A stretch of 45,683 bases of DNA, from contig DRGC01000019.1 of assembly GCA_011050235.1 (NCBI GenBank), positions 1 through 45,683 on the forward strand. The letters are read 5' to 3'. Positions 5,183 through 31,786 of the stretch are shown one piece after another (position 1 is the stretch's first letter; every line of letters starts with the position of its first letter). The notes under the pieces were generated by a model, which was not told the DNA's origin, ran no database searches, and saw nothing but the letters and a program-made list of their open reading frames with translations. This DNA is from Phycisphaerae bacterium (lineage in GTDB: Bacteria > Planctomycetota > Phycisphaerae > SM23-33). The position numbers were made by a program, and so were the translations under genes.

Positions 5183-6379
5183 TCAATCACTGCCCACCAG
5201 GTCGGCTGTGTCCCGCGCGATCATCAACTCCTCGTTGGTGGGAATAATCCACACCGGCAGGCGACAGCCATCGGCCGTGATCGGGCCCGCTCTGCCGGCG
5301 GCGGCTTCATTGCGATCGGCGTCGAAAACCGCTCCCAGTGACGCCAACTGGCGGCAGATCGCCTCGCGAACGGGCAGCGCATTCTCACCGATGCCGCCTG
5401 TCAGCACAACCGCGTCCACGCTCGGCAGCAGCGTGGTGTACGCGCCGATGTACTTGCCCACGCGGCGGCAGAACATATCGACAGCCAAGGCGGCCTTGGC
5501 GTCGCCGTCGGCCCGGGCAGCCAGCAGATCGCGCATGTCGTTGCCGATCCCGCTGACGCCCAGCAGGCCGGACTCCTTGTTGAGCGCCCGCTCGACATCC
5601 TCGATGCTCAACCCCCGCGAGACCATAAAGGGGATGATGGCCGGATCGATGTCGCCGCTGCGCGTGCCCATGACCAGCCCCTCCAGCGGCGTCATGCCCA
5701 TCGAATGGTCCACCGCCACCCCGGCGGCGACGGCCGTCATCGAGCAGCCGTTGCCCAGGTGGCACGTGATCAGGTTGACCTCGTCGACTCGCTTGCCCAG
5801 CAGCGCCGCCGCCTGGAGCGTGACGTAGCGATGGCTCGTGCCGTGGAACCCGTAGCGGCGGACCTTGTGTTGGGTGTACCACTCGGTGGGCACGGCGTAG
5901 CGATAGGCCGCCGGCGGCAGCGTCGCCAGAAAGGCCGTGTCGAACACCGCCACGTGGGCCGCGCCGCTGATGGCCGCCATGGCCCCCTCGATGCCGGCCA
6001 GGTTCGGCGGGTTGTGCAGCGGCGCCAACGGGATGTTCTGACGAATCACATCGCACAGCGCCTCGTCGATGCGGCGCGACGCGGTGACCGTCTCGCCGCC
6101 GTGGACGACCCGATGGCCGACGCCGTCAATCTCGTCGACGCTCTTCAAGACTCCCAACTCGGCGTCACACAGGACGTCCAGAATGAGGCGCACCCCCGCG
6201 GCGTGGTCAGCGACGTCCACCTGGCGCTCCACCGTCCGCTCGCCGGTGGCATGCTCCAGATTGGGCTCGCCGCCGCCAATGCGCTCGACAATGCCCTTGG
6301 CCAACACCGACTCGTCGGTCATGTCGAAAAGCTGATACTTGATCGAACTGCTGCCGCAGTTGATGACAAAGATCTTCAT
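5183..6379 (-). CDS. ackA: Acetate kinase
   Basis: The 398-residue protein has the family's usual length and signatures: NCGSSSIK at residues 7-14 (phosphate/acetate binding), VFDTAFLATLPP, YGFHGTSHRYV, HLGNGCSM and the MTPLEGLVMGTRSGDIDP segment, ending in a GGIGENA phosphate loop. It transfers phosphate between acetyl phosphate and ADP in the cytoplasm, making ATP during fermentation. The usual partner phosphotransacetylase is not adjacent in this window. It is 121 bases upstream of the LysM gene on the same strand and has its own promoter candidate, so it may be transcribed separately. Its presence fits an anaerobic or fermentative lifestyle together with the glycyl radical enzyme further right. 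Confidence 0.97.
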   Translation of the reverse strand: MKIFVINCGSSSIKYQLFDMTDESVLAKGIVERIGGGEPNLEHATGERTVERQVDVADHAAGVRLILDVLCDAELGVLKSVDEIDGVGHRVVHGGETVTASRRIDEALCDVIRQNIPLAPLHNPPNLAGIEGAMAAISGAAHVAVFDTAFLATLPPAAYRYAVPTEWYTQHKVRRYGFHGTSHRYVTLQAAALLGKRVDEVNLITCHLGNGCSMTAVAAGVAVDHSMGMTPLEGLVMGTRSGDIDPAIIPFMVSRGLSIEDVERALNKESGLLGVSGIGNDMRDLLAARADGDAKAALAVDMFCRRVGKYIGAYTTLLPSVDAVVLTGGIGENALPVREAICRQLASLGAVFDADRNEAAAGRAGPITADGCRLPVWIIPTNEELMIARDTADLVGSD

Positions 6380-8185: not shown

Positions 8186-8444
8186 CTTCAATGCCCTCAT
8201 CTGAACTGACCACAGCCTACTATATACTAGCATAACAGAAGATCGACTTCCACTATCGTAGCCCGAAGCTTGGCCTGTCTGTCCGCATACCCAAAGGTTA
8301 CACGCTTCAAGCCATGGTGCATCATCCCGCCAGCAAGTAGCCCGGACGATGAAGCCCAGGACAAGCCGTTACAGCCTTGACGCCGAGCCGATCAGGCCCG
8401 AGGCTACGGACCTCGATTCCCATCGCCACGAAAGGAGTGCTCCC

Positions 8445-11015
8445 ATGCCCGTCAAGCTCAACCCCACCTGGCCCGTTCTGAAGACTTACGACGCCGAGCA
8501 CCTTCGTCGCATCGCCCTGCCGTTGGGCGGGATCGGCACGGGCACGGTCAGCCTCGGCGGGCGCGGCGACCTGCGCGATTGGGAGATCGCCAATCAGCCC
8601 AACAAGGGACCCCGTTCGACCGGGAACATCGCCATGGGACGGTTCGAGACGGCCACCTTCGCCGTCTGGGCCCAGCCGACCGGAAGAGACGCGGTCGCCA
8701 AGATCCTCGAAGGCCCCATCGACTCGGCCGACTACGAAGGCCAGAGCGGCTGTGCGGTTGACAAACACGGCATGCCGCGGTTCCGCAATTGCTCCTTCGC
8801 GGCGGCCTACCCGCTGGGGCAAGTCCTGCTGAACGACCCGGACTTCCCGCTGGACGTGCGGCTGGAGGCTTTCAACCCGCTGGTCCCGCCCGACGCCGAT
8901 GCCAGCGGCATCCCCGTGGCCGTCCTGCGCTACGTGCTGATCAATAAGACCAACCGCGCCGTCAAGGCCTCCGTGCTCGGCTCGGTCCCCAACGCGATCG
9001 GGCAGCGGCTCAATCAGGAGTTCGACCGCGCCGGCAGCGCGATCCGCTTCCGTAAGGACGGCCGACTGCGCGGGCTGATCCTCAGCAACAACCGACTGTG
9101 CAAGACGGCCGAGGAAAACGGACAGATCGCCCTGGTCAGCCCCACGCCGGGCGCGGTGACCTACTGGCGCGATTGGCCCGCCGAGCAAAGCATGTGGAGC
9201 ACGGGCTGGCTGCGGCTGTGGGATGATTTTTCCGACGACGGCAAGCTGGACCCCGTCCGCGGCCACGGGCGCGAGCTGATGCAGGGGTTCATGACGGTCG
9301 GCGTGAGCGTCCCGCCGCGCAGCGAAAAGGAGGTCACGTTCCTGCTGACGTGGCACTTCCCAAACCGCTATAGCTGGTCGCCGGGCAAGGCCGTCGCCTG
9401 CTGCGACAAAGGCGACTACATCGGCAACTACTACACCACCCAATACCGCAGCGCCTGGGACGTCGCCCGCAAGATCGCGCCGAAACTGGCCAAGCTGGAG
9501 GCCGACACGGTTCGGTTCGTGGGGGCGATGGTCAACAGCGACCTGCCGCTGGCGATGCGGGATGCGGCGCTGTCGAACATCTCCGTGCTGCGAACCGAGA
9601 CCAGCCTCCGCACGCCCGATGGGCGATTCTTCGGCTTCGAGGGGTGCTGCGAGACGAACGGGTGCTGTCACGGCTCGTGCACGCACGTGTGGAACTACGA
9701 GCACACCACACCGTTTCTCTTCGGGCCGCTCGCCCGGACCATGCGAGAGGTCGAGTTCGCCCACGCCACCGAGGCGTCGGGCTTCATGCACTTCCGCGTC
9801 TATCTGCCGCTGAACCGTTCGAAGAAGTACCGCTACGCCGCCGCCGACGGGCAGATGGGCTGCATCATGAAGATGTACCGCGAGTGGCAGCTCTCCGGCG
9901 ACGACAAGATGCTCAAGAAGCTCTGGCCGAACGTGAAGAGGGCGCTGGCCTTCGCGTGGAAAAAGAACGGCTGGGATTCCGACGGCGACGGCGTGATGGA
10001 AGGCTGCCAGCACAACACGTTCGACGTCGAGTGGTACGGGCCCAACCCGCTGATGCAGTGTTGGTACTTGGGCGCGTTGCGGGCGGGGGAGGAGATGGCC
10101 CGCACCATAGGCGATGAGCGATTCGCCGCCGCCTGCCGCAAGCGGTTCGAGTTCGGCAGCCAATGGATGGACAAGCACCTGTTCAACGGCGAGTACTACG
10201 AGCAGCACATCCAGCCGCGAAAGATGGACCAGATCATCAAGGGTCTTCGCGGCGGCATGGGCGGCGACACCCCGGAAAAGCCCGCCTTCCAGCTCGGCAG
10301 CGGGTGCCTGGCCGACCAACTCCTGGGCCAGGCGACGGCCAACGTGTGCGGCCTGGGCCCCCTGCTCAAGCCCGCCAACATCCGCAAGACGCTGCGGAGC
10401 ATCATGAAGTACAACTGGCGCGACGGCGTGTGGAACCACGCCAACCACGCCCGATCGTACGTCATCGGCGACGAGCAGGCGCTCATGTGCGGCAGCTTCC
10501 CGCGCGGCGGCCGGCCGGAGGTGCCGTTCGCCTTCACGGCCGAGGCGTGGACCGGCATCGAATACACCGCTGCCGCCGGCATGTTGGCCGAGGGCCAGCG
10601 CGGGCCCGCGCTGCAGATCATCCGCGCCATCCGCGACCGCCATAACGGGAAGAACCGCAACCCGTTCAACGAGGCTGAGTGCGGCTACCACTACGCCCGC
10701 AGCATGGCCAGCTACGGCACGCTGATCGCCTACACGGGCTTTCACTACTCCGCCGTCGAAAAGGCCATGACCTTCGCCGCCGCCAACCGCGCCAAGCCCA
10801 CCCAATGGTTCTGGGCCTCCGGCGACGCCTACGGCACCGTCACGCAGAAACGCTCGGGAACCACCGGCAGAAAGATCGCCGTCGACCTGAAGGTCCTAAG
10901 CGGCAGCGTCGCCCTCAAGACACTCAAGCTCAAAGGCCACGGCTGCGCCCCCCTACCCCGCCCGCGCATCCTGAAGGCGGGCCAGTCCCTGCGAGTAAGC
11001 GTCGGCAAGAACTAG
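8445..11015 (+). CDS. Glycoside hydrolase family 116-like (DUF608) glycosidase
   Basis: The start at 8445 has AAAGGAG seven bases upstream, giving 856 residues without a signal peptide. The N-terminal beta domain begins with LPLGGIGTGTVSLGGRG (about residues 25-41), the hallmark of GH116/GBA2-like enzymes. The catalytic (alpha/alpha)6 barrel includes GSCTHVWNYEHTTPFLFGP (around 405-425) and GCQHNTFDVEWYGPN; Asp527 in that second motif aligns with the GH116 acid/base aspartate. I cannot place the nucleophile confidently: the position that is Glu in human GBA2 does not look acidic here, though Glu419 is nearby. Family members cleave beta-glucosides, beta-xylosides or N-acetylglucosaminides. The protein is probably cytoplasmic and opens a plus-strand carbohydrate region. 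Confidence 0.88.
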   Translation: MPVKLNPTWPVLKTYDAEHLRRIALPLGGIGTGTVSLGGRGDLRDWEIANQPNKGPRSTGNIAMGRFETATFAVWAQPTGRDAVAKILEGPIDSADYEGQSGCAVDKHGMPRFRNCSFAAAYPLGQVLLNDPDFPLDVRLEAFNPLVPPDADASGIPVAVLRYVLINKTNRAVKASVLGSVPNAIGQRLNQEFDRAGSAIRFRKDGRLRGLILSNNRLCKTAEENGQIALVSPTPGAVTYWRDWPAEQSMWSTGWLRLWDDFSDDGKLDPVRGHGRELMQGFMTVGVSVPPRSEKEVTFLLTWHFPNRYSWSPGKAVACCDKGDYIGNYYTTQYRSAWDVARKIAPKLAKLEADTVRFVGAMVNSDLPLAMRDAALSNISVLRTETSLRTPDGRFFGFEGCCETNGCCHGSCTHVWNYEHTTPFLFGPLARTMREVEFAHATEASGFMHFRVYLPLNRSKKYRYAAADGQMGCIMKMYREWQLSGDDKMLKKLWPNVKRALAFAWKKNGWDSDGDGVMEGCQHNTFDVEWYGPNPLMQCWYLGALRAGEEMARTIGDERFAAACRKRFEFGSQWMDKHLFNGEYYEQHIQPRKMDQIIKGLRGGMGGDTPEKPAFQLGSGCLADQLLGQATANVCGLGPLLKPANIRKTLRSIMKYNWRDGVWNHANHARSYVIGDEQALMCGSFPRGGRPEVPFAFTAEAWTGIEYTAAAGMLAEGQRGPALQIIRAIRDRHNGKNRNPFNEAECGYHYARSMASYGTLIAYTGFHYSAVEKAMTFAAANRAKPTQWFWASGDAYGTVTQKRSGTTGRKIAVDLKVLSGSVALKTLKLKGHGCAPLPRPRILKAGQSLRVSVGKN

Positions 11016-20298: not shown

Positions 20299-21441
20299 AT
20301 GGCCAAGCTTAGATGGATCAGACATGAAGATATGGCCATCGACACGCGGGCGAGCGTGCGGCGGGAGGAGTATCTGGACTACATGACGTTCCAGGCCAAT
20401 GATCGGCCGTTGCTGACTGAGCTGTTCGGGCCGCTGGTTGGGCTGAAGGAGGAGTGGGAGTCCCAGGGCGCGACGCCGAAGGAGTTGGATTTCACGGCGT
20501 TCGAGTTCCGTGCGCCGCTGATCGGTCACCTGCCGGTCCGCACCGGCTGGATGGGGCCCGACCGTTACGAATCCATCGAGGAGACCGAGGACCATCACCT
20601 CTATCGCGACGGCATCGGGCGGCTGATGAAGCTCTACAAGGGTCGGGCAACGATTCCCCTGCCATTGGAGTACCCGGTCAGAACGATGGACGACTGGCTG
20701 GCGATCAAGGGCGAGTTTGAGTTCACCGACGAGCGGCTGGCCGAGGATTGGCGAAAGGCGGCCGCCGATCACCTGGCGGCTGGGCGTGCGGTGATGGTCA
20801 ACATGCCGGGCGCATTTGCCGCACCGCGCGAGTTGATGGGCGATGAGGCTGTGTGCCTGGCCTACTACGATCAGCCCGAACTGCTCCACGACATGATCGA
20901 CACGTTCCGCCAAACCACCTGCCGCGTGCTCGATGTCGTCTCGCGCGAGGTGCAGGTGGACATCCTATTCGTCCACGAGGACATGGCCGGCAAGAGCGGC
21001 CCGCTGGCCGGCCCGCAGCACGTGCGTGAGTTTTTCGCCCCCTACTACTGCACCGTGTGGGAGATGCTCTCGGATCGCGGGGCGCGTTTGTTCGAGCAGG
21101 ACAGCGACGGCGACATGCGGCCGGTGGTCGAGGCATTCCTCGACGCGGGGATCAATGTCATGTTCCCCTGCGAGCCGGCGGCCGGGATGGACATCGTGCG
21201 GCTCCGCGAGCGATACGGCCGGCGACTGGCCTTTTCCGGCGGCATCGACAAGCACGTCCTCCGCGGCACCCGTGACGAGATCGTCGCCGAGTTGGAGTAT
21301 AAAATTCCGCCGATGGTCGCCACAGGCGGCTGCGTGCTGGGCTTGGACCACCGCATCCCCAACGGCACGCCGCTGGACAACTACCGCTTCTACATCGCCA
21401 AAGCGTGGGAGATCATCAACCGCGAAGCGGCGAAGCTCTAG
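20299..21441 (+). CDS. Uroporphyrinogen-decarboxylase-like (URO-D superfamily) protein 1
   Basis: From the ATG at 20299 the product is 380 residues; the longer frame upstream reads through the sulfatase region and is discarded. A later ATG at 20332 is possible. Family features are an early REEYLDYMTFQ helix, VHEDMAGKSGPLAGP, a DSDGDMRPVVEAFLDAGI strand-turn and a CEPAAGMD segment followed by FSGGID. These resemble the corrinoid-methyltransferase and sugar-associated URO-D groups seen in Planctomycetota rather than HemE of haem synthesis. The substrate is unknown. The gene follows the sulfatase directly. Its TAG overlaps the convergent neighbour's TAG in a shared CTAG. Confidence 0.8.
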   Translation: MAKLRWIRHEDMAIDTRASVRREEYLDYMTFQANDRPLLTELFGPLVGLKEEWESQGATPKELDFTAFEFRAPLIGHLPVRTGWMGPDRYESIEETEDHHLYRDGIGRLMKLYKGRATIPLPLEYPVRTMDDWLAIKGEFEFTDERLAEDWRKAAADHLAAGRAVMVNMPGAFAAPRELMGDEAVCLAYYDQPELLHDMIDTFRQTTCRVLDVVSREVQVDILFVHEDMAGKSGPLAGPQHVREFFAPYYCTVWEMLSDRGARLFEQDSDGDMRPVVEAFLDAGINVMFPCEPAAGMDIVRLRERYGRRLAFSGGIDKHVLRGTRDEIVAELEYKIPPMVATGGCVLGLDHRIPNGTPLDNYRFYIAKAWEIINREAAKL

Positions 21442-22222: not shown

Positions 22223-23329
22223 ATGTCCACAGAAGCTGGAATGGCTGCACTGCGTTTGGAGATGCCGCCCAAGGTGCCGCGGACGGAGTATTCCGTCGAG
22301 ATCCACAGCGATCTGGTCCAGGCCATCACCGGGCTCGATCCTCGTTCGTGGGACGAGGGCGAAAGCCCGGGCAACTGGGATGAGCTCGAAAAACACGTGA
22401 TCGCCCGGACGGACGGCAAGAATCCCTGGCACGAACTGTACCGTATCTGGGATTACGCCTTCCAGTGGAACACCAGTATCGGCTCGGAGCATTTCGGCAA
22501 CTACACCACCAACATGGGTCACGCCGTTTACACCGAGGATGGCAGCGACTTCACCCCCGTGGGGACCTGCCCGTTTGCTACGCCCGAAGAGGCCCTGGCG
22601 TTCGATCCCGTCGACGCGTTCGGCCGGCTCGATCACGCCAAGCTGGTGGCCGACTTCAATAATTACTACGCCGCCGCCGTGCGCCGCGGCCCGATCGGCG
22701 TGGGCATGACGGGCATCTACACCACCATGCTGTCGGCCTTCATCGCCATCTACGGCTGGGACATGCTGCTGCTGGCCGCCGGGGTCGACCAGAAGCAGTT
22801 GGGCACGATCGCCAATCGTTACGCCCAGTGGGCCCAGCAACTGTTCGACGCCCTGGCCGACTGCGACGCGCCGGTGGTGATGGTCCACGACGACATGGTC
22901 TGGACGGAAGGCCCGTTCATCCATCCGGACTGGTACCGCGAGTTCGTGTTCCCGAACTTCAAGAACTACTTCGCCCCGCTGCGCGATGCGGGCAAGATCA
23001 TCTGCTTCACCTCCGACGGCAACTACACGATGTTCCTCGACGACCTGGTCGATTGCGGGGTGAACTGCTTCATCTTCGAGCCGCTGACGGACATGGCCGC
23101 CTTCGCCGAAAAATACGGCCGGACGCACGCCTTCATCGGCAACGCCGACACCCGCATCCTGTTGCGGAACAACAAGGCCGAGATCCGCGCGGAGGTCCAG
23201 CGGTGCATGGCCATCGGCAAGAGTTGCCCGGGCTTCTTCCTGGCTGTGGGCAACCATATCCCGCCGAATACGCCGGTGGACGCGGCCCTGTACTACAACA
23301 AGGTGTACGAAGAACTGGCCCAACGGTAG
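22223..23329 (+). CDS. URO-D superfamily protein 2
   Basis: From the ATG at 22223 (AAGGGA seven bases upstream) the product is 368 residues. It shares the URO-D barrel pattern with its neighbours: GVGMTGIYTTMLSAF, VVMVHDDMVWTEGPFIHPDW, CFTSDGNYTMFLDDLVDCGV and FIFEPLTDM. The (H/C/T)SDG motif and following Glu correspond to the ligand pocket of corrinoid methyltransferase relatives. It differs strongly from URO-D proteins 1 and 3, so it is not a recent copy. A small membrane protein follows eight bases later. Confidence 0.8.
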   Translation: MSTEAGMAALRLEMPPKVPRTEYSVEIHSDLVQAITGLDPRSWDEGESPGNWDELEKHVIARTDGKNPWHELYRIWDYAFQWNTSIGSEHFGNYTTNMGHAVYTEDGSDFTPVGTCPFATPEEALAFDPVDAFGRLDHAKLVADFNNYYAAAVRRGPIGVGMTGIYTTMLSAFIAIYGWDMLLLAAGVDQKQLGTIANRYAQWAQQLFDALADCDAPVVMVHDDMVWTEGPFIHPDWYREFVFPNFKNYFAPLRDAGKIICFTSDGNYTMFLDDLVDCGVNCFIFEPLTDMAAFAEKYGRTHAFIGNADTRILLRNNKAEIRAEVQRCMAIGKSCPGFFLAVGNHIPPNTPVDAALYYNKVYEELAQR

Positions 23330-23877: not shown

Positions 23878-24645
23878 GTGAATGACGTGACGGACCAAGG
23901 CGTAGGTGAGCGCATGACGCTGGTGGGCCACCTGGACGAACTTCGCCGGCGGATTATCTATGCGCTGGTGGGCCTGGCCGCCGGAATCGCAGCGGCGCTG
24001 ATGCTGGGACGGCAGATCGTCGATTTCCTTCGCTACCCATACACGCAGGCCATGGAGGCCGCCAACCAGCAGCCCGACCTGTCCGTCCTGAACCACATGG
24101 CGGGGCTCATCATTTACCTCAAGACGGCGATGGCGACCGGGCTGATCATCGCTTCCCCGTGGATTTTCTATCACGTGTGGATGTTCGTTTCGGCCGGCCT
24201 GTACCCCAAGGAGCGCCGCGGCGTGATGTTCATCGTGCCCTTCTCGGCCGCCCTGTTCATCGTCGGAGCGCTGTTCTTTGTCTTTGTCGTCGCCGTGCCG
24301 GTCCTGAGTTTCCTGATCTCCGTCAACAACTGGCTGGGGTTGGAAATGCGCATCACCTTCGACAGCCACGTCACGCTCATGGCCAGGATGGCGTTGGTGT
24401 TTGGGCTGGCGTTTCAGACGCCGCTGGCGGTGCTGATCCTGGGGCGTGTGGGGTTGGTGTCCCTCAAGATGCTGCATCAGTACCGGCGGCACGTCGTTAT
24501 CGGCATCCTGATCAGCGCCGCTCTGCTGACGCCGCCGGACCCGGTCAGCCAGTTGTGCCTCGCCGTGCCGCTGTGGCTGCTCTACGAACTGGGCGTGCTG
24601 CTGGTCTGGCTCCTGGCGCCGCGCGCCAAGGAGCGCGTTGACTAA
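23878..24645 (+). CDS. tatC: Sec-independent protein translocase subunit TatC
   Basis: The 255-residue protein (GTG start) has six membrane segments and the family motifs: MTLVGHLDELRRRI near the N-terminus, the conserved FLRYP, a FVSAGLYPKERR loop after the third segment, FGLAFQTPLAV and SAALLTPPDPVSQL. TatC is the signal-peptide receptor of the twin-arginine export system in the cytoplasmic membrane. It is convergent with tatA at 25412, separated by a repeat-rich gap. The final codons and TAA stop lie within similarity to a repeat also found at 41515-41869. Two Tat-signal proteins are encoded just beyond tatA. Confidence 0.97.
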   Translation: MNDVTDQGVGERMTLVGHLDELRRRIIYALVGLAAGIAAALMLGRQIVDFLRYPYTQAMEAANQQPDLSVLNHMAGLIIYLKTAMATGLIIASPWIFYHVWMFVSAGLYPKERRGVMFIVPFSAALFIVGALFFVFVVAVPVLSFLISVNNWLGLEMRITFDSHVTLMARMALVFGLAFQTPLAVLILGRVGLVSLKMLHQYRRHVVIGILISAALLTPPDPVSQLCLAVPLWLLYELGVLLVWLLAPRAKERVD

Positions 24646-25082: not shown

Positions 25083-25412
25083 CTAGGACTGGTCCTGCTG
25101 GCTGGAGCTGGTGGAACTGGTGGAGTCGGCGCCGTTGTTGGCGTTGTCGGAGTTGGGGAGCTGTCTCGACTGGTCCGACTGGTTCGACAACTGTTTGTTG
25201 TCGTTCTTGTCGGGCTCTTCCACGTCGGTCTTGATGCCCTTCATCTCATCCTTGAACGTCCGCAGCCCGCGCGCCAGCCCGCGCGCCATCTCCGGCAGCT
25301 TGCGAGCGCCGAACAGCAACAGGATCGCCAGGATGACGATGAGCACTTCCCAGTGGCCGGGCAGACCGAAGATGGCCAAAAGGCCGGACGCGTTGCTTGC
25401 TATAGTTGGCAT
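25083..25412 (-). CDS. tatA: Twin-arginine translocase subunit TatA/TatE
   Basis: The 109-residue protein starts at an ATG with AGGAA seven bases upstream. It has the classic layout: one membrane segment (WEVLIVILAILLLFG) followed at once by the amphipathic helix ARKLPEMARGLARGLRTF with the conserved FG and P, then an acidic and Ser/Gln-rich tail. TatA forms the protein-conducting assembly with TatC. No separate TatB is seen, as in minimal TatAC systems. It is the last gene of the minus-strand redox cluster, 54 bases after the Tat-exported aldo/keto reductase. Confidence 0.95.
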   Translation of the reverse strand: MPTIASNASGLLAIFGLPGHWEVLIVILAILLLFGARKLPEMARGLARGLRTFKDEMKGIKTDVEEPDKNDNKQLSNQSDQSRQLPNSDNANNGADSTSSTSSSQQDQS

Positions 25413-25466
25413 GACAGGATTCCTGGTTGTCTCAAGCTGCTTGTCAACTTATCGGCTGGACGAAGC

Positions 25467-26690
25467 CTAGGCCAACAGGTCCTCGGCGAGCTTCATCCGC
25501 TCGGCGATGGGGATGCCCTGCGGGCAGCGGGACTCCGCCAAGGAGTAGTCCACCCGCGTCAGGCGGTTGCGGACATCGGCCGGCAAGGCCGCAAACAGTT
25601 CGCGGGCCTCGTGCTTGTCGTCGTAGGCGTTGTAGTACATGACGTATCGCATCACGTCGCAGACGGGCATCTGGCCGTCGACGGCGTGGTCGCAGATGTC
25701 GCTGCATCCGGCGCAGTAGTCCGACGCCGTCGCTTCGGCGAACGTCCGCAGGGCGGCGTGATCGGCGGCCGATAGCTCGGTCTTATCCAGGGCGGCGGCG
25801 ACGTTGGCCTTGAGAATCGTCATGTTGGGCATCTTCGAGCAAATACATGAGAACCGCTCGTCGCCCCAGACGACTTTCAGCGCCGCCTGCTGGAGGGAGA
25901 ACTTCTTGGCGGTAAAGGCGTCCAGCAGGGCCTGCTCGGCCTCGGCGTTGCTGGCCCGCATGCCCTTGGCCTGGGTCTTCATGGCCGTCATTCCGATCCC
26001 GGCCTTGTGGGCGGCATCGAGGGCCTTCTTGTATCGCCCATCCCCGCCTTCATCCAGCACCATCGTGCGGAAGTTGAAGGTGAGCATCACACCGTCCACC
26101 CAACCAACCTGAGCGGCCTTTTGCAGACACGCCGACATGTCCCTATGGCTGGAGAAGCCGAAGAACTTGATCTTGCCGGCCTTCTTCATCTTTTCGGCCC
26201 AGGCCTTGACGTCGTCATTGAGACTGTCGGGTTTGCTGATGCCGTGCAGGAAGAACAGATCGACGTAATCGGTCTGCAGACGGTCCAGGGATGCCTCCAG
26301 GGACTTGGTTCGGGCGGCGCCGGACTTGGTCACCAGGAAGATCTTCTTGCGGTCGTCGCTGTTGGCCCCCAGGTACTTGCCGAAGCCCGTTTCGCTCTTG
26401 CCGCCGCCGTATGATTCGGCCGTGTCCCAGTAGGTCACGCCCATCTGCAGCGCCTGGCGAAGCAGCAGTTGGTTGTCGATGGTGTTAAAGATGCCGCCCA
26501 GCGACAGAATCGACACGTTCACGCCCGTCTTGCCGAACGCGCGGGTGGGCATCGTTGTCGTAGCCGTCTCGGCTGCAGCGCCACCGAGAGCGCGGCTGGC
26601 GCCGCCAAGGATTGCGCCGGCCCCAACGACCGCGGCCGTGCCTAGAAAATCGCGACGAGAGATCCGATTCGAGTCTGAGCGCTCCTGCAT
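25467..26690 (-). CDS. Tat-exported aldo/keto reductase with C-terminal 4Fe-4S site
   Basis: The 407-residue protein starts at an ATG with AAAGGA upstream and carries a twin-arginine signal (SRRDFLG at 11-17, then a hydrophobic stretch), so it should be exported folded. The aldo/keto reductase barrel shows the catalytic tetrad Asp89 (YWDTAESY), Tyr94, Lys122 (VTKSG) and His149 (FFLHG). After the barrel comes an added segment with Cys326-x2-Cys329-x3-Cys333 and Cys389-Pro, a likely 4Fe-4S binding site. Cytoplasmic members use NAD(P)H; a periplasmic one would need another electron source, perhaps the polyferredoxin encoded just upstream. The substrate is unknown. Confidence 0.88.
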   Translation of the reverse strand: MQERSDSNRISRRDFLGTAAVVGAGAILGGASRALGGAAAETATTTMPTRAFGKTGVNVSILSLGGIFNTIDNQLLLRQALQMGVTYWDTAESYGGGKSETGFGKYLGANSDDRKKIFLVTKSGAARTKSLEASLDRLQTDYVDLFFLHGISKPDSLNDDVKAWAEKMKKAGKIKFFGFSSHRDMSACLQKAAQVGWVDGVMLTFNFRTMVLDEGGDGRYKKALDAAHKAGIGMTAMKTQAKGMRASNAEAEQALLDAFTAKKFSLQQAALKVVWGDERFSCICSKMPNMTILKANVAAALDKTELSAADHAALRTFAEATASDYCAGCSDICDHAVDGQMPVCDVMRYVMYYNAYDDKHEARELFAALPADVRNRLTRVDYSLAESRCPQGIPIAERMKLAEDLLA

Positions 26691-26776
26691 GGGTCGATCC
26701 TTTCCGGATGGGTATTCGCTGGATATCCCGCGATTGTACTAAACCGCCCGGCCGCTGGTCAACGGTTTCTCGCCCA

Positions 26777-28540
26777 TCAAAGCAGCAGCGATCGCTTGGG
26801 GCTGCGACTTTCGTTCTCGGCCGTCACGCGGATTGCCCGCAGGCCGCTGACGGGGCATTCGTGCTCGCAGACCCCGCAGCCGATGCACTTGTCCGGGTCG
26901 ATGTTCGGCTGCTGGAGGCGCACCTGCACGGCCACCCGGCTGCCCGCAGCCGGCGGCGCCGACCACGGCCGCTCGGGCGAAATGCGGAGGATGTCCGAGG
27001 TCTGCTGGACGATGCGGCGGCGATCGTCGTCCGGAGCGTCGACGCCCTTGACGTAGTAGTCGCCGCTGGCCCACACGCCCTCGCTCCACGCCGCCCCGGC
27101 CAGGGCCAACCGGTCCGGCGCGCTTTCGCGCACCGTCAGCACGCCGTCGCGAACGGTCTGGTAGACCTCGCCGATGAAGATCGCCTTCGGGCTGACCGGA
27201 CAGTTTTCCTGGCAGACGATGCAGGGCTTGTCCATCGCCCACGGGAGGCATCGGCCGCGATCGACAAACGCCGTCCCCAGCCGGATGGGCCCGTTGTCGG
27301 CGAACTCGCCTCTGCCGAGCTTTTCGTCCAGGCTGATCGGTCGGATCGCGCCGGTCGGGCAAATATCTCCGCAGGCCACGCAGTTGAGCTGGCACCCGCT
27401 TGTGCCGATCCGGTTGTTCAGCATCGGCGTCCACAGGCTCTCGATGCCGAACTGAGCGCCGGTGGGTTGAATAACGTTCGTCGGGCAGACCCGCATGCAC
27501 TGGCCGCACTTGATGCAGCGATTGAGGAACTCCTCCTCCACCAGCGCGCCGGGCGGCCGGATCAGCCCGGCCGGCCAGTTGCTCGTCAGCCGCCCGCCCA
27601 GCCGAAGGATTGGCACGGCCACCAGCCCCGACACCAGGGACACCAGCACGCCCCGTCGCGAGACATCCGGGCCCGTGATCTCGCCCGGGGACTTGTGGAC
27701 CTGATACGCAATCGCGTCGTGGCGACAATCGACGATGCAGTTGACGCACATCACGCATTCGCTGCTTCGCACGTCGCTGGCCGGGTTGCAGGCGCCTTCG
27801 CAATCCTTCTCGCACAGCCGGCAGATCGTGCATGGTTCCGGCCGCCGGCCGATCCGCCAGATCGTCAGCCGGCTGAACACGCCCAGAAGCGCGCCCGTCG
27901 GGCAGACGAACCGGCAATAGAAACGCGGGATGCCCAGGTTCGCCAGAACCGCCGCCACGAAGATCGCGCCCATCAGCACCGTGCCGTCAGCCAGGCGCGC
28001 CGTGATCCACACGCGCTGCAGGCCGCCGTCGACGATGGGCAGGACCACCAGGGTCACCGACCGGTAGACCAGCGGGATCGGGTCCAGCAGGCCCGTCAGC
28101 AGGCTGCCCGCGCTGCTATGCCATCCACCCAGCGCGCTGAGCGCCGCCGCGGCCAGCACAAAACCCAACACGTAATACTTCGCCGACTGCCATCGCCGGT
28201 AGCGATTCAGGCGGATGCGGTCCTCCAGCGGCCTTCGACGCCGCCCCAGCCAGCCCACCGCCTGATGGATCGTGCCGAACGGGCACAGCCACCCGCAGAA
28301 CACCCGGCCGAACAGCACCGTCAGCACGAACGTCGCCAACACCCACAGCAGCCCCACCGTCAGCGTCCCAGCCGCCAGCGCCACGCCGACGGCCACCAGC
28401 GGGTCCAACTGCAGCAGCCAGTTCACCGGCCAGCCGCCCCGCTGCCAGAAGCCATCGCCGCTGGAACTGACCACGCACAGCCATAGGAACAGCACCAGAA
28501 AGAACACCTGCGTCACTCGTCTGGCGGTTCGGATCGTCAT
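26777..28540 (-). CDS. Membrane polyferredoxin (NapH/NosR-like, multiple 4Fe-4S)
   Basis: The 587-residue protein begins with about five membrane segments and the two NapH-type motifs FCGWLCPFG (about residue 85) and YCRFVCPTG (about 220). Several ferredoxin cysteine clusters follow: CTICRLCEKDCEGACNP, CVMCVNCIVDC, CIKCGQCMRVCP, CVACGDICP, CIVCQENCP and CIGCGVCEHECP. An internal RRGVLVSLVSGLVAV stretch resembles a membrane anchor or internal Tat-like segment. It is a plausible conduit from the quinone pool to exported reductases. It lies 28 bases after the DUF362 gene and 86 before the aldo/keto reductase. Confidence 0.9.
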   Translation of the reverse strand: MTIRTARRVTQVFFLVLFLWLCVVSSSGDGFWQRGGWPVNWLLQLDPLVAVGVALAAGTLTVGLLWVLATFVLTVLFGRVFCGWLCPFGTIHQAVGWLGRRRRPLEDRIRLNRYRRWQSAKYYVLGFVLAAAALSALGGWHSSAGSLLTGLLDPIPLVYRSVTLVVLPIVDGGLQRVWITARLADGTVLMGAIFVAAVLANLGIPRFYCRFVCPTGALLGVFSRLTIWRIGRRPEPCTICRLCEKDCEGACNPASDVRSSECVMCVNCIVDCRHDAIAYQVHKSPGEITGPDVSRRGVLVSLVSGLVAVPILRLGGRLTSNWPAGLIRPPGALVEEEFLNRCIKCGQCMRVCPTNVIQPTGAQFGIESLWTPMLNNRIGTSGCQLNCVACGDICPTGAIRPISLDEKLGRGEFADNGPIRLGTAFVDRGRCLPWAMDKPCIVCQENCPVSPKAIFIGEVYQTVRDGVLTVRESAPDRLALAGAAWSEGVWASGDYYVKGVDAPDDDRRRIVQQTSDILRISPERPWSAPPAAGSRVAVQVRLQQPNIDPDKCIGCGVCEHECPVSGLRAIRVTAENESRSPKRSLLL

Positions 28541-28568
28541 GGGGGCGTCGGCCTTTCGGTTCGGCGCG

Positions 28569-29561
28569 TCAGGTCACGCTGACGGCAACGGGCTTGAGGC
28601 TCTGGTAGTCGGTCGTGCCCACACCGGCCTCGGCCGCCTTGGCGAGATAGGGCAGGTCGTCCAGCGACAGCCCAAGCAGTTGCGTCGCGCCGTAGGCGTC
28701 GGCGGCGACCTGGTCGGTGCTGACGACAAGCCGGCGCGTGTCCTTCAGGTCTGCCGGCGAGCCGCCCGTCGGACCGTTGCGTGTCATCGTCTGCACGCCG
28801 TCGAGCACCACGAGAGTCGGGCTGACCATCATCGCCAGTTCCTTGATCGTATTGTGAATCTGCTGGTGGAACTGGTTCCGCCGCCCGCCCAGCAGGCCGT
28901 ACCAATTCTTCATCGTCATCGACGCGCCGCTTCGGAAGTGGTCCTTCACGGGGGCCACGCCGATCACGCGGTCGACGCCCTCAAGCGGTTCATAGAGCAG
29001 CGGCCAGTTGCGGATCAGCCGCCCGCCCTCCACCGTCGTCGGCCGAAAGTAGCTGTCCTTCGGCAGAACCACCTTCGCCCCCGCCCCGGCCGCCGCCGCA
29101 CCGATGCCCGACAGGCGGAAGCAGTTGGCCGGATCGTTGATCGGGTTGTCCGTGACGATGACGTCCTTCGCCCCCACCCGCAGACACAGCCGCACCAGCT
29201 CGGCGACCAAGTCCGGGTTGCTCGTCGCCCCCTGCGACGGCGCGGTGGCGAAGGCGGCGTTGACCTTGATCAGCACGCGCTGCCCGCGCTGGATGTAGGC
29301 GCTGAGCCCGCCGATGGCGTCCAAGCTGCGCCGCAGCATCGTCGCGCGGTCCGTGCCCTCGGCGATGCTCATCCGCCCCGCCATGCCGGCCGCGGCGTAA
29401 TCGCCCAAGCGCACGACCTCGTCGCCAACATCTCTGTCCGCGCGCCCGACCAGCCACGCGCCGACCCCGCCGGCAGCCGCCACAGCCACACCGGCCTTGA
29501 CCGATCGGCCGAGGAACTCCCGGCGGCTGAGGCCTGTATTGTCCGGTTGTGAGTCGTTCAT
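28569..29561 (-). CDS. Tat-exported DUF362 family protein
   Basis: From the ATG at 29561 the product is 330 residues; its ATGA overlaps the stop of the upstream gene, indicating translational coupling. The N-terminus has the twin-arginine motif SRREFLGRSVKAG followed by a hydrophobic core. The DUF362 body includes RVLIKVNAAFATAP, DVIVTDNPINDP, VKDHFRSGASMTMKNWYGLL and LVVLDGVQTMTRNGPTGG. DUF362 proteins often occur with ferredoxins but have no established reaction. The segment shows few cysteines, so it probably does not hold its own cluster. Confidence 0.88.
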   Translation of the reverse strand: MNDSQPDNTGLSRREFLGRSVKAGVAVAAAGGVGAWLVGRADRDVGDEVVRLGDYAAAGMAGRMSIAEGTDRATMLRRSLDAIGGLSAYIQRGQRVLIKVNAAFATAPSQGATSNPDLVAELVRLCLRVGAKDVIVTDNPINDPANCFRLSGIGAAAAGAGAKVVLPKDSYFRPTTVEGGRLIRNWPLLYEPLEGVDRVIGVAPVKDHFRSGASMTMKNWYGLLGGRRNQFHQQIHNTIKELAMMVSPTLVVLDGVQTMTRNGPTGGSPADLKDTRRLVVSTDQVAADAYGATQLLGLSLDDLPYLAKAAEAGVGTTDYQSLKPVAVSVT

Positions 29562-30535
29562 TCGTCCGCCTGCACGGCCTCGAACAACATCTGCGCCAGT
29601 GTCGCCGCCACGGCCGGGTCGGAACATTCGTGCACACCCGCCAGCCATCGCTCGTGGGAGAAAATGATGTACTCATGCCCGAACAGCGACAACTCCGTAA
29701 AGAACCCCTGCGCCATTCGCCGCTCGCGCGCCGCTCCGTGTTTCAGGAGAAACGCCGCATACGCCCTCGCCAGCTCCGACGCCTCGGCCTCGCTCGCGCG
29801 CTGCGACAGATACGCCGTTACCTCCACGTCGTCGAACCGATATCGCGCCAGCCAGACGTGATCGAGCTTCTCGAAGCTGAAGACATCCGTCATCTGCAAC
29901 TCAACACTGCCGGGAATGAAATTCTCCCGGGGGAACATATCCTTTTCTTCCCCCGCGTCGGACTGCTCGACCGCTGTCCGGTCGACGAAGTTCCCGGCCA
30001 GCTCCAGCGCAGCAGCCAGCAACTCCGGCGACTGGACCGAGGGGATAATCTCCACGTAGTACGGCCCGTGCACGAAGTATAGACTGCCGCCCGACCGATA
30101 CGCGTGCGGCGTCAGGTCGAGGGCCGCGGCATTGCTGCGCCGCTGGGAGCTGAACACCGCGAAGGCGTTGTTTCCCTCGCCCATGTCGAAGACGAACAGC
30201 TCCAGCCACGCCTGCGGATCGCCGACCACCTGAAACCGCTGGCAGTCCAGGGCCTTGAAGTTCGCCGGCAGATAGTACCCGGCCTTGCCGTTGATCTTGT
30301 CCGATAGCGTTGCCGGGTCGAAGTGCTCCGGCGGCGTCATCACCGCCAAGCTCTCCGGCAGCAGATGGCCGAACGTCGCGGCCGCCGCGCCGTCCCCAGC
30401 CGGGCCCAGAGCGATCCCATCGCCGCGATAGGTCAGCTTCCCCGCCAGCACGGCCGCTGCAATCCCAGCAAGGACCAGCAGCACAACGGCGCTGATGACG
30501 GTCTGCATCCTTCCGCCCGATGTCTCGGATCCCAT
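29558..30535 (-). CDS. DUF6599-like membrane-anchored protein
   Basis: The chosen ATG at 30535 has GAGG eight bases upstream and gives 325 residues; GTG at 30571 and ATG at 30508 are alternatives. A single N-terminal membrane segment (VISAVVLLVLAGIAAAVLAG) is followed by a soluble mixed alpha/beta domain with two similar halves: residues with AGYYLPANFKALDCQRFQV and AYRSGGSLYFVHGPYYVEI, then FEKLDHVWLARYRF and VTAYLSQRAS. The pattern resembles DUF6599 proteins that accompany DUF362 and polyferredoxin genes. It heads the redox operon. The family name is from recollection and needs a search. Confidence 0.65.
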   Translation of the reverse strand: MGSETSGGRMQTVISAVVLLVLAGIAAAVLAGKLTYRGDGIALGPAGDGAAAATFGHLLPESLAVMTPPEHFDPATLSDKINGKAGYYLPANFKALDCQRFQVVGDPQAWLELFVFDMGEGNNAFAVFSSQRRSNAAALDLTPHAYRSGGSLYFVHGPYYVEIIPSVQSPELLAAALELAGNFVDRTAVEQSDAGEEKDMFPRENFIPGSVELQMTDVFSFEKLDHVWLARYRFDDVEVTAYLSQRASEAEASELARAYAAFLLKHGAARERRMAQGFFTELSLFGHEYIIFSHERWLAGVHECSDPAVAATLAQMLFEAVQADE

Positions 30536-30655
30536 TGTGTCAGCCTCGTCAGGTCTTCGGCCCCGCACCACAACCGGCGCCGCGGAACATCTTTTCGCAG
30601 AACAGCCACCACCCTGTCAAGGTAATCGCCGTGCGGCCCGCCGCAGCCGCCGAGC

Positions 30656-30684
30656 TTGACGCATGCGGGGCCGGTCGCCACAAT
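30656..30684 (+). promoter_or_regulatory. Candidate promoter of URO-D gene 3
   Basis: TTGACG (30656-30661) and CACAAT (30679-30684) are exactly 17 bases apart. The predicted start of transcription, about 30691, falls in the left arm of the adjacent palindrome. Confidence 0.5.
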
Positions 30685-30687
30685 GCC

Positions 30688-30710
30688 CCTTCCAATTGTC
30701 GCTTGGAAGG
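30688..30710 (+). promoter_or_regulatory. Palindrome overlapping the start of transcription and the ribosome-binding site of URO-D gene 3
   Basis: CCTTCCAA-N7-TTGGAAGG is a perfect 8-bp inverted repeat whose right arm contains the GGAAGGA ribosome-binding site seven bases before the ATG. It could be an operator at +1 or, if transcription starts further upstream, a hairpin that hides the ribosome-binding site. Confidence 0.5.
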
Positions 30711-30718
30711 ATAGGTCC

Positions 30719-31786
30719 ATGGTGAGGAATGATCGTTGGGAACGTCTCGAGGCGGCCTTTACGGGCCAAACGCCCGACCGCACGCCGACTGTCGGCGGGT
30801 GGATCAGTTGCGTCGAGACGATCTGCACGCTGACGGGCGTCAGCGTGGACGAGTACTGGGCTGACCCCGGTCCGATCTCGATGCGCGCCTACGAGCGGCT
30901 GGGGTGTGACGGCCTGATCGACAACCTCGTTCCGCGCGGGCGGGATAATCGGATCGTCGACGAACACTCCTACGCCAACGCCGACCGCGGCATGACGTTC
31001 GAGGAGTGCATCGCCCACATCGACGCCAGAGAGACCGCCGACGACGTGCTGGCTGCGTTTGATTTCGAGGCCGAATACGACTGCTTCAAGCGCCAGATGC
31101 TGGCCGGCCAGGAAGCCGCCGGCGAGATGGTCTGGTTCCCCGCGCGCTGGGATGCCTGCGCCGCCTTGGGCCATTACCACACCCTCGGGTATGAGAACTT
31201 CTTCCTGATGGTGGGCCTGGAGCCCGAGCGGATCGACAAGCTGGTTCAGATCTCCGCCGCCCGGGCCCACTGCGTCAACCGCATTGTCGCTCGGGGCGTC
31301 GCCGAGGGCATCCACCCCCACGCGCTGTTTTTGGGCGAGGATATCACCACCCAGCGCGGGCCGATGGTCTCGCCGGACTTCATGGCCGAGCACTGGGCCC
31401 CCCAACTGGCCTACAGCCTTGGGCCCCTGCTGGATGTCGGCTGCAAACCGGTGTGGCACTGCGACGGCGATGTTCGCCCGATGATGGACATGCTGCTGGC
31501 CGCCGGGGTGCAGGGCCTGCAGGGATTCCAGCCGGAATGCGGCGTGACGATCGAATACGTCGCCGGCCTGCGAACGCGCGACGGCAATCGCCTGCTGGTG
31601 CTGGGGCCCATCTCCGTGACGACCGAACTGCCCGCGCTCTCGCCCGATGAGATCCGCCAGCGCGTCCGCCACGCCATCGACGTCTGCCGTAGCAACGCCG
31701 ACCTGTGCCTGTTCACCGCCAACACCATCAACCCCGACTGCTCCCCCGAAAACATCATCGCCATGTACCAAGCCGTCCGGCAGTAG
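30719..31786 (+). CDS. URO-D superfamily protein 3
   Basis: From the ATG at 30719 (AAGGA seven bases upstream) the product is 355 residues. It begins RWERLEAAFTGQTPDRTPT, the common opening of URO-D-like proteins in sugar-degrading bacteria, and contains FLGEDITTQRGPMVSPDFM, a WHCDGDVRPMMDMLLAAGV motif and FQPECGVTIEYV. The HCDG and PEC residues match positions used for metal or cofactor binding in corrinoid methyltransferase relatives, with a Cys where many have Ser. It is not HemE-like. It is transcribed divergently from the redox operon, with its own promoter candidate. Confidence 0.82.
   Translation: MVRNDRWERLEAAFTGQTPDRTPTVGGWISCVETICTLTGVSVDEYWADPGPISMRAYERLGCDGLIDNLVPRGRDNRIVDEHSYANADRGMTFEECIAHIDARETADDVLAAFDFEAEYDCFKRQMLAGQEAAGEMVWFPARWDACAALGHYHTLGYENFFLMVGLEPERIDKLVQISAARAHCVNRIVARGVAEGIHPHALFLGEDITTQRGPMVSPDFMAEHWAPQLAYSLGPLLDVGCKPVWHCDGDVRPMMDMLLAAGVQGLQGFQPECGVTIEYVAGLRTRDGNRLLVLGPISVTTELPALSPDEIRQRVRHAIDVCRSNADLCLFTANTINPDCSPENIIAMYQAVRQ

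Follow-up and report, generated by a model that had tools for sequence, protein, structure and literature searches.

A conserved gene module with a predicted Tat-exported aldo/keto reductase and a fused NapH-NapG polyferredoxin

Aldo/keto reductases (AKRs), which rank with the most widespread oxidoreductases, are regarded as enzymes that use NAD(P)H. Here, we describe a locus in which an AKR with a predicted Tat signal is encoded next to a membrane polyferredoxin, a DUF362 protein and a DUF6599 protein. The locus lies in a 45,683-nt stretch of DNA from a Phycisphaerae bacterium (GenBank assembly GCA_011050235.1, contig DRGC01000019.1; the whole stretch is referred to as the window), and the unit to be described spans positions 25467–30508, or 25467–30571 with an alternative start codon. 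In the open-access literature, we found no description of the four-gene module, which is real, widely conserved, apparently undescribed and assembled from known protein types.

Two of the closest described systems concern the polyferredoxin. NapGH-type proteins are quinol dehydrogenases that feed periplasmic reductases (PMC5449189). The window polyferredoxin shares with them the membrane CxxxCP motifs and the periplasmic four-cluster domain, with a predicted route from quinol to the periplasm, but differs in being one fused chain with sub-cutoff scores and in having an AKR operon, not NapA, as its partner. A closer counterpart is the Sec/Tat dual-targeted polyferredoxin Q1NSB0 of the delta proteobacterium MLMS-1, whose biogenesis has been studied and whose function was not assigned (Tooke et al. 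2017, PMC5449189). Like the window protein, it is a NapH-NapG fusion with an internal twin arginine before its last transmembrane (TM) helix and with motifs for seven [4Fe-4S] clusters, three on the cytoplasmic side and four on the outer side. The text of that study holds no occurrence of "DUF" or "Planctomycet", so a DUF or Planctomycete partner is not named there.

Gene order and conservation of the module

The four genes lie in tight order on the minus strand and are followed on the same strand by tatA. DUF6599 comes first (29558..30508; 316 residues from an ATG, with an alternative in-frame GTG start at 30571; PF20244, E = 4.1e-42), followed by DUF362 (28569..29564; 331 residues; PF04015, E = 2.5e-41), the polyferredoxin (26777..28540; 587 residues; NapH TIGR02163, 3.6e-19, and NapG, 1.4e-18, both scores being under the curated NCBIfam cut-offs) and the AKR (25467..26690; 407 residues; Aldo_ket_red, 8.5e-26, plus Pfam TAT_signal). 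These open reading frames and their order had been reported in an original prediction, made from the letters of the DNA, of a periplasmic redox system with its own Tat genes, and they are confirmed by the reading-frame list, Pfam and NCBIfam.

The four families are also found together in other Planctomycetota. We searched 244 genomes of this phylum for each family separately, counting two genes as linked when they lie within 5 kb. Among the genomes that encode both members of a pair, linkage is seen in 12 of 13 for AKR-DUF6599, 32 of 40 for polyferredoxin-DUF6599, 28 of 39 for DUF362-polyferredoxin and 9 of 15 for AKR-polyferredoxin. Beyond this phylum, a search with an AKR profile over ~85,000 species genomes resulted in 39 loci, 38 of which were counted. 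A polyferredoxin lies within the fetched flank in 17 of these 38, against ~0.4% per genome expected by random position, a comparison that ignores kinship; the loci span six phyla. The linkage between AKR and polyferredoxin is far beyond chance, and in 15 of the 17 linked loci the gap between the two genes is only -23 to 69 bp. Among 21 genomes with an AKR gene that is not accompanied by a polyferredoxin gene at its locus, 16 encode a polyferredoxin at another site.

The complete order DUF6599-DUF362-polyferredoxin-AKR recurs in Desulfobacterales (L061, L063, L073), Sumerlaeota (L072, L074), Opitutaceae of the Verrucomicrobiota (L079), Phycisphaerae (L082), other Planctomycetota (L083–L085, L090–L093), Acidobacteriota (L086, L089) and Hydrogenedentota (L088). 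In many cases, fewer than 50 bp separate the polyferredoxin gene from the AKR gene. The four genes thus form a real conserved module in at least six phyla, which supports the predicted redox system as a conserved unit. For one of these loci (L091, QNYK01000106.1), the record label Bacillota is probably wrong, as its AKR position matches that of G196:C7 from the Planctomycetota sample. The AKR is present in two to four copies in some loci; in the Phycisphaerae locus L082 (6285-12628), four one-cluster Tat-AKR genes follow the module consecutively, which suggests substrate diversification. A cultured relative, strain NaphS2, encodes two AKRs and a polyferredoxin. Genes other than the four are not conserved between loci, and neighbouring genes were therefore dropped as a source of clues to the substrate.

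Features of the four proteins

The first half of the polyferredoxin matches NapH and the second half NapG. Its predicted topology comprises an N-terminal membrane domain, two cytoplasmic-side [4Fe-4S] motifs, two CxxxCP pairs and four periplasmic [4Fe-4S] motifs. The cysteines of the CxxxCP pairs and of the cluster motifs are all invariant among 18 sequences, which bears out the NapH-type motifs of the original prediction. Immediately before the last TM helix (297-315), the window protein has a twin arginine (RR295-296), and across the 18 sequences this site is mostly RR, the remainder being KR or TR. Distant relatives in other Planctomycetota adjoin FMN_bind/TPR proteins in place of AKR and DUF362 (L140, 8019-10369; L141, 11449-13534; L142, 8661-9986; L146, 8341-9531), with a Tat-signal ApbE flavin transferase also present in L140 and L141. 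Given these FMN_bind and ApbE neighbours, the polyferredoxin probably serves as an electron relay of general use, whose partners in the periplasm can be swapped.

In the AKR, the original prediction had placed the cysteines exactly: C326, C329, C333 and C389 are invariant among 46 AKRs, as are the Tat arginines R12 and R13, the catalytic tetrad D89, Y94, K122 and H149, and residues K238 and N296. An AlphaFold model (pLDDT 87.5, pTM 0.84) folds residues 44-331 into an (alpha/beta)8 barrel, the region that most structural matches cover, with Z scores of 26-29 against known NAD(P)H AKRs. C389 lies in a helical C-terminal extension, and C326-C333 are located where this extension joins the barrel; no PDB sequence among the matches listed covers this cysteine region. 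In the AKR fold, the tail after the last helix forms a loop closing the substrate pocket, and the putative four-Cys cluster may therefore be close to the active site.

The barrel, the D-Y-K-H tetrad and PF00248 are shared with the AKR superfamily (Tm1743, AKR11C1, L-galactose dehydrogenase), from which the window AKR differs by its Tat signal, its C-terminal four-Cys domain and its non-conserved positions 286 (A/Q/H/E/G) and 289 (N/S/T). These two align to the nucleotide-loop Lys and Arg of Tm1743, which we take to be the positions that hold the 2'-phosphate of NADPH. The loop pattern resembles that of the NAD-dependent L-galactose dehydrogenase more closely than that of an NADPH enzyme, so that the AKR may still use NAD. 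Two-cluster Fe-S AKRs (COG1453-like; L045-L047, L053) likewise combine the barrel with C-terminal cysteine clusters, and some of them adjoin DUF6599 as well. However, they have eight cluster cysteines, as opposed to the four invariant ones of the window type, and fall in a separate clade: the one-cluster AKRs group together (SH-aLRT 99), to the exclusion of both the two-cluster and the cluster-less Tat-AKRs. With four invariant cysteines and a clade of its own, the window AKR is not of the COG1453-like type.

For the DUF362 protein, the twin arginine of the Tat signal is present in 17 of 17 sequences. Its model (pLDDT 85.8) matches 12 LarA-family entries with Z scores of 14.8-17.0 over ~206 residues, the next fold scoring 5.6, and thus has the N-domain fold of LarA, the nickel-pincer nucleotide enzyme. 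Pfam clan CL0471 already contains both the DUF362 and LarA families (PMC11770544). Residues H209, K219 and H233 are invariant among the 17 sequences, with spacings of 10 and 14, compared to 10 and 16 for LarA H174, K184 and H200; the window protein has an HxxxGxSxxxK-like motif, and its H209-x9-K219 resembles LarA H174-x9-K184. A profile-profile comparison of DUF362 and LarA gave no alignment (hhalign Prob 0.3%), so this residue equivalence serves as a lead only. DUF362 further differs from LarA in its predicted export, in having no C-terminal LarA domain and in having no evident counterpart of LarA R75 and H108. LarC is present in 13 of 16 genomes checked, yet also in 191 of the 244 Planctomycetota genomes, and is therefore uninformative on the cofactor. 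We dropped the assignment of a nickel-pincer cofactor by LarC co-presence for this reason, and because the LarA profile did not align.

The DUF6599 protein has a single N-terminal TM helix and no conserved cysteine. In some related loci, the family is divergent, and either clustering or the Pfam profile served to recognize it. In several Planctomycetota families, DUF6599 and the polyferredoxin are fused in one protein of ~815-860 residues (~815-850 in L129-L132, L138, L143, L144 and L147). By sequence, no relatives of solved structure were found for the polyferredoxin, DUF362 or DUF6599.

A possible quinone-linked route and its rivals

Together, these features would fit a periplasmic AKR that is linked to the quinone pool by the four-gene module, with electrons entering or leaving the enzyme at its [4Fe-4S] cluster, a reading whose chances we consider evenly balanced. 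The narrower proposal, in which the respiratory quinone pool feeds the AKR outside the cytoplasm through the polyferredoxin and the AKR's own [4Fe-4S] cluster, in place of soluble NAD(P)H and together with an exported LarA-fold partner, is offered somewhat more tentatively. The polyferredoxin would act as a single-chain quinol dehydrogenase of the NapGH type, with Sec inserting it and Tat completing the process, and would connect the (mena)quinone pool electronically to the periplasmic clusters: quinol would be oxidized at the NapH half, with electrons crossing to the four periplasmic [4Fe-4S] clusters of the NapG half. Before export by the general Tat system, the AKR would take up its [4Fe-4S] cluster, possibly along with a nucleotide, while folding in the cytoplasm. 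Its single C-terminal cluster would then provide the relay to the polyferredoxin, with a carbonyl or alcohol substrate at the periplasmic face, while DUF362, with its LarA fold, and the membrane-anchored DUF6599 would be constant partners.

By analogy with NapGH, quinol-fed carbonyl reduction in the periplasm would be the likelier direction. Flow may also be reversed, with the AKR oxidizing a periplasmic alcohol, sugar or hydroxy acid and its electrons entering the quinone pool. As AKR reactions are reversible, the sequence does not fix the direction; NapGH-type proteins are known, however, as quinol dehydrogenases that feed periplasmic reductases (PMC5449189), and we regard this opposite-direction case of the same quinone link as rather unlikely. 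In favor of the quinone-linked AKR, we count the gene order in six phyla, the short gaps, the invariant residues of the 46 AKRs and their clade, the polyferredoxins encoded elsewhere in 16 of 21 genomes, the polyferredoxin-DUF6599 fusions, the motifs of the Tooke type, the AKR barrel with its extra Cys-bearing segment, the non-conserved positions 286 and 289, and the FMN_bind and ApbE neighbours of distant relatives.

Several points weigh against it. AKRs move hydride, and we know of no route by which a one-electron cluster could supply it without a flavin or nicotinamide. A flavin is not evident, and the reaction may call for a different carrier, such as a bound nucleotide. Many Planctomycetota have the core of polyferredoxin, DUF362 and DUF6599 without this AKR, which is thus not required for the core. 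In three Planctomycetota (L048-L050), the same module lies beside a Tat-AKR without the cysteine cluster, and the invariance of N296 and K238 leaves room for nucleotide binding by the AKR. The last two points, along with the invariant tetrad, would also suit an AKR that is exported with a firmly bound NAD(P)(H), like glucose-fructose oxidoreductase (GFOR), and works by a closed redox cycle, its [4Fe-4S] cluster being structural and its partners serving otherwise or regenerating the nucleotide. The NADP-containing GFOR is established as a Tat substrate exported with its cofactor bound (Halbig 1999, as cited in PMC6708511), so export by itself is compatible with NAD(P). The NAD(P)H AKRs on which the AKR barrel superposes include the NAD-dependent L-galactose dehydrogenase. 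The GFOR precedent weakens the premise of the original prediction that an exported AKR cannot easily use NAD(P)H. The nucleotide pocket gives a mixed picture: the barrel and the invariant N296 and K238 are present, but the Lys and Arg positions expected for the 2'-phosphate of NADPH are not conserved. A purely structural cluster would leave it unexplained why the AKR and polyferredoxin genes lie only tens of bases apart in six phyla, and we consider the GFOR-like cycle unlikely, to about the same degree as reversed flow.

The existence of the core without this AKR, and the fusion of DUF6599 to the polyferredoxin, would likewise fit a device in which the LarA-fold DUF362 is catalytic or cofactor-bearing and the AKR is an optional accessory or a maturation factor. 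The LarA superposition (Z 15-17) and the H209-x9-K219 motif point the same way, whereas the failed profile alignment and the missing R75 and H108 counterparts argue against it, LarC is too widespread to say anything, and the AKR is often multi-copy and adjoins the polyferredoxin. This makes a DUF362-centred device improbable in our judgement, more so than either the GFOR-like cycle or reversed flow.

The Tat genes bear on how the proteins would be exported. TatA (25083..25412, minus strand; TatA_B_E, 3.2e-15) adjoins the module and is probably outside it, and TatC (23878..24645, plus strand; 1.6e-55) is a convergent neighbour that we do not count in the module. This proximity would suit a dedicated Tat system, as the original prediction had claimed. 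However, these are the sole TatC and the sole TatA/B/E match detected in a 4.0-Mb genome (98 contigs, 95.5% complete), and the related loci that we examined all lack TatA and TatC near the module. Most simply, then, they serve general Tat export in this cell and adjoin the module by chance; we rejected a dedicated translocase, which we regard as very improbable. The module would nevertheless need Tat, whose predicted cargo comprises the AKR and DUF362 and probably also the final portion of the polyferredoxin.

Genomic surroundings and significance

On both sides of the module, the plus strand encodes three URO-D/methylcobamide-methyltransferase-like proteins (20329-21438, 22229-23326 and 30656-31783), the match of the last staying sub-cutoff. 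Elsewhere in the window, an acetate kinase (5183-6379, minus strand) and a GH116-like glycosidase (8349-11015, plus strand) are compatible with a fermentative sugar degrader.

In the literature that we found, no function is assigned to DUF362, to DUF6599 or to the orphan Sec/Tat polyferredoxin, and the module would offer all three a shared, testable context. The electron-wired AKR is a promising proposal. If true, it would represent a new way to power a very common enzyme fold, with an AKR wired by Fe-S clusters to the membrane electron pool, and would extend AKR chemistry to membrane-driven reduction or oxidation in the periplasm of sulfate reducers and other anaerobes.

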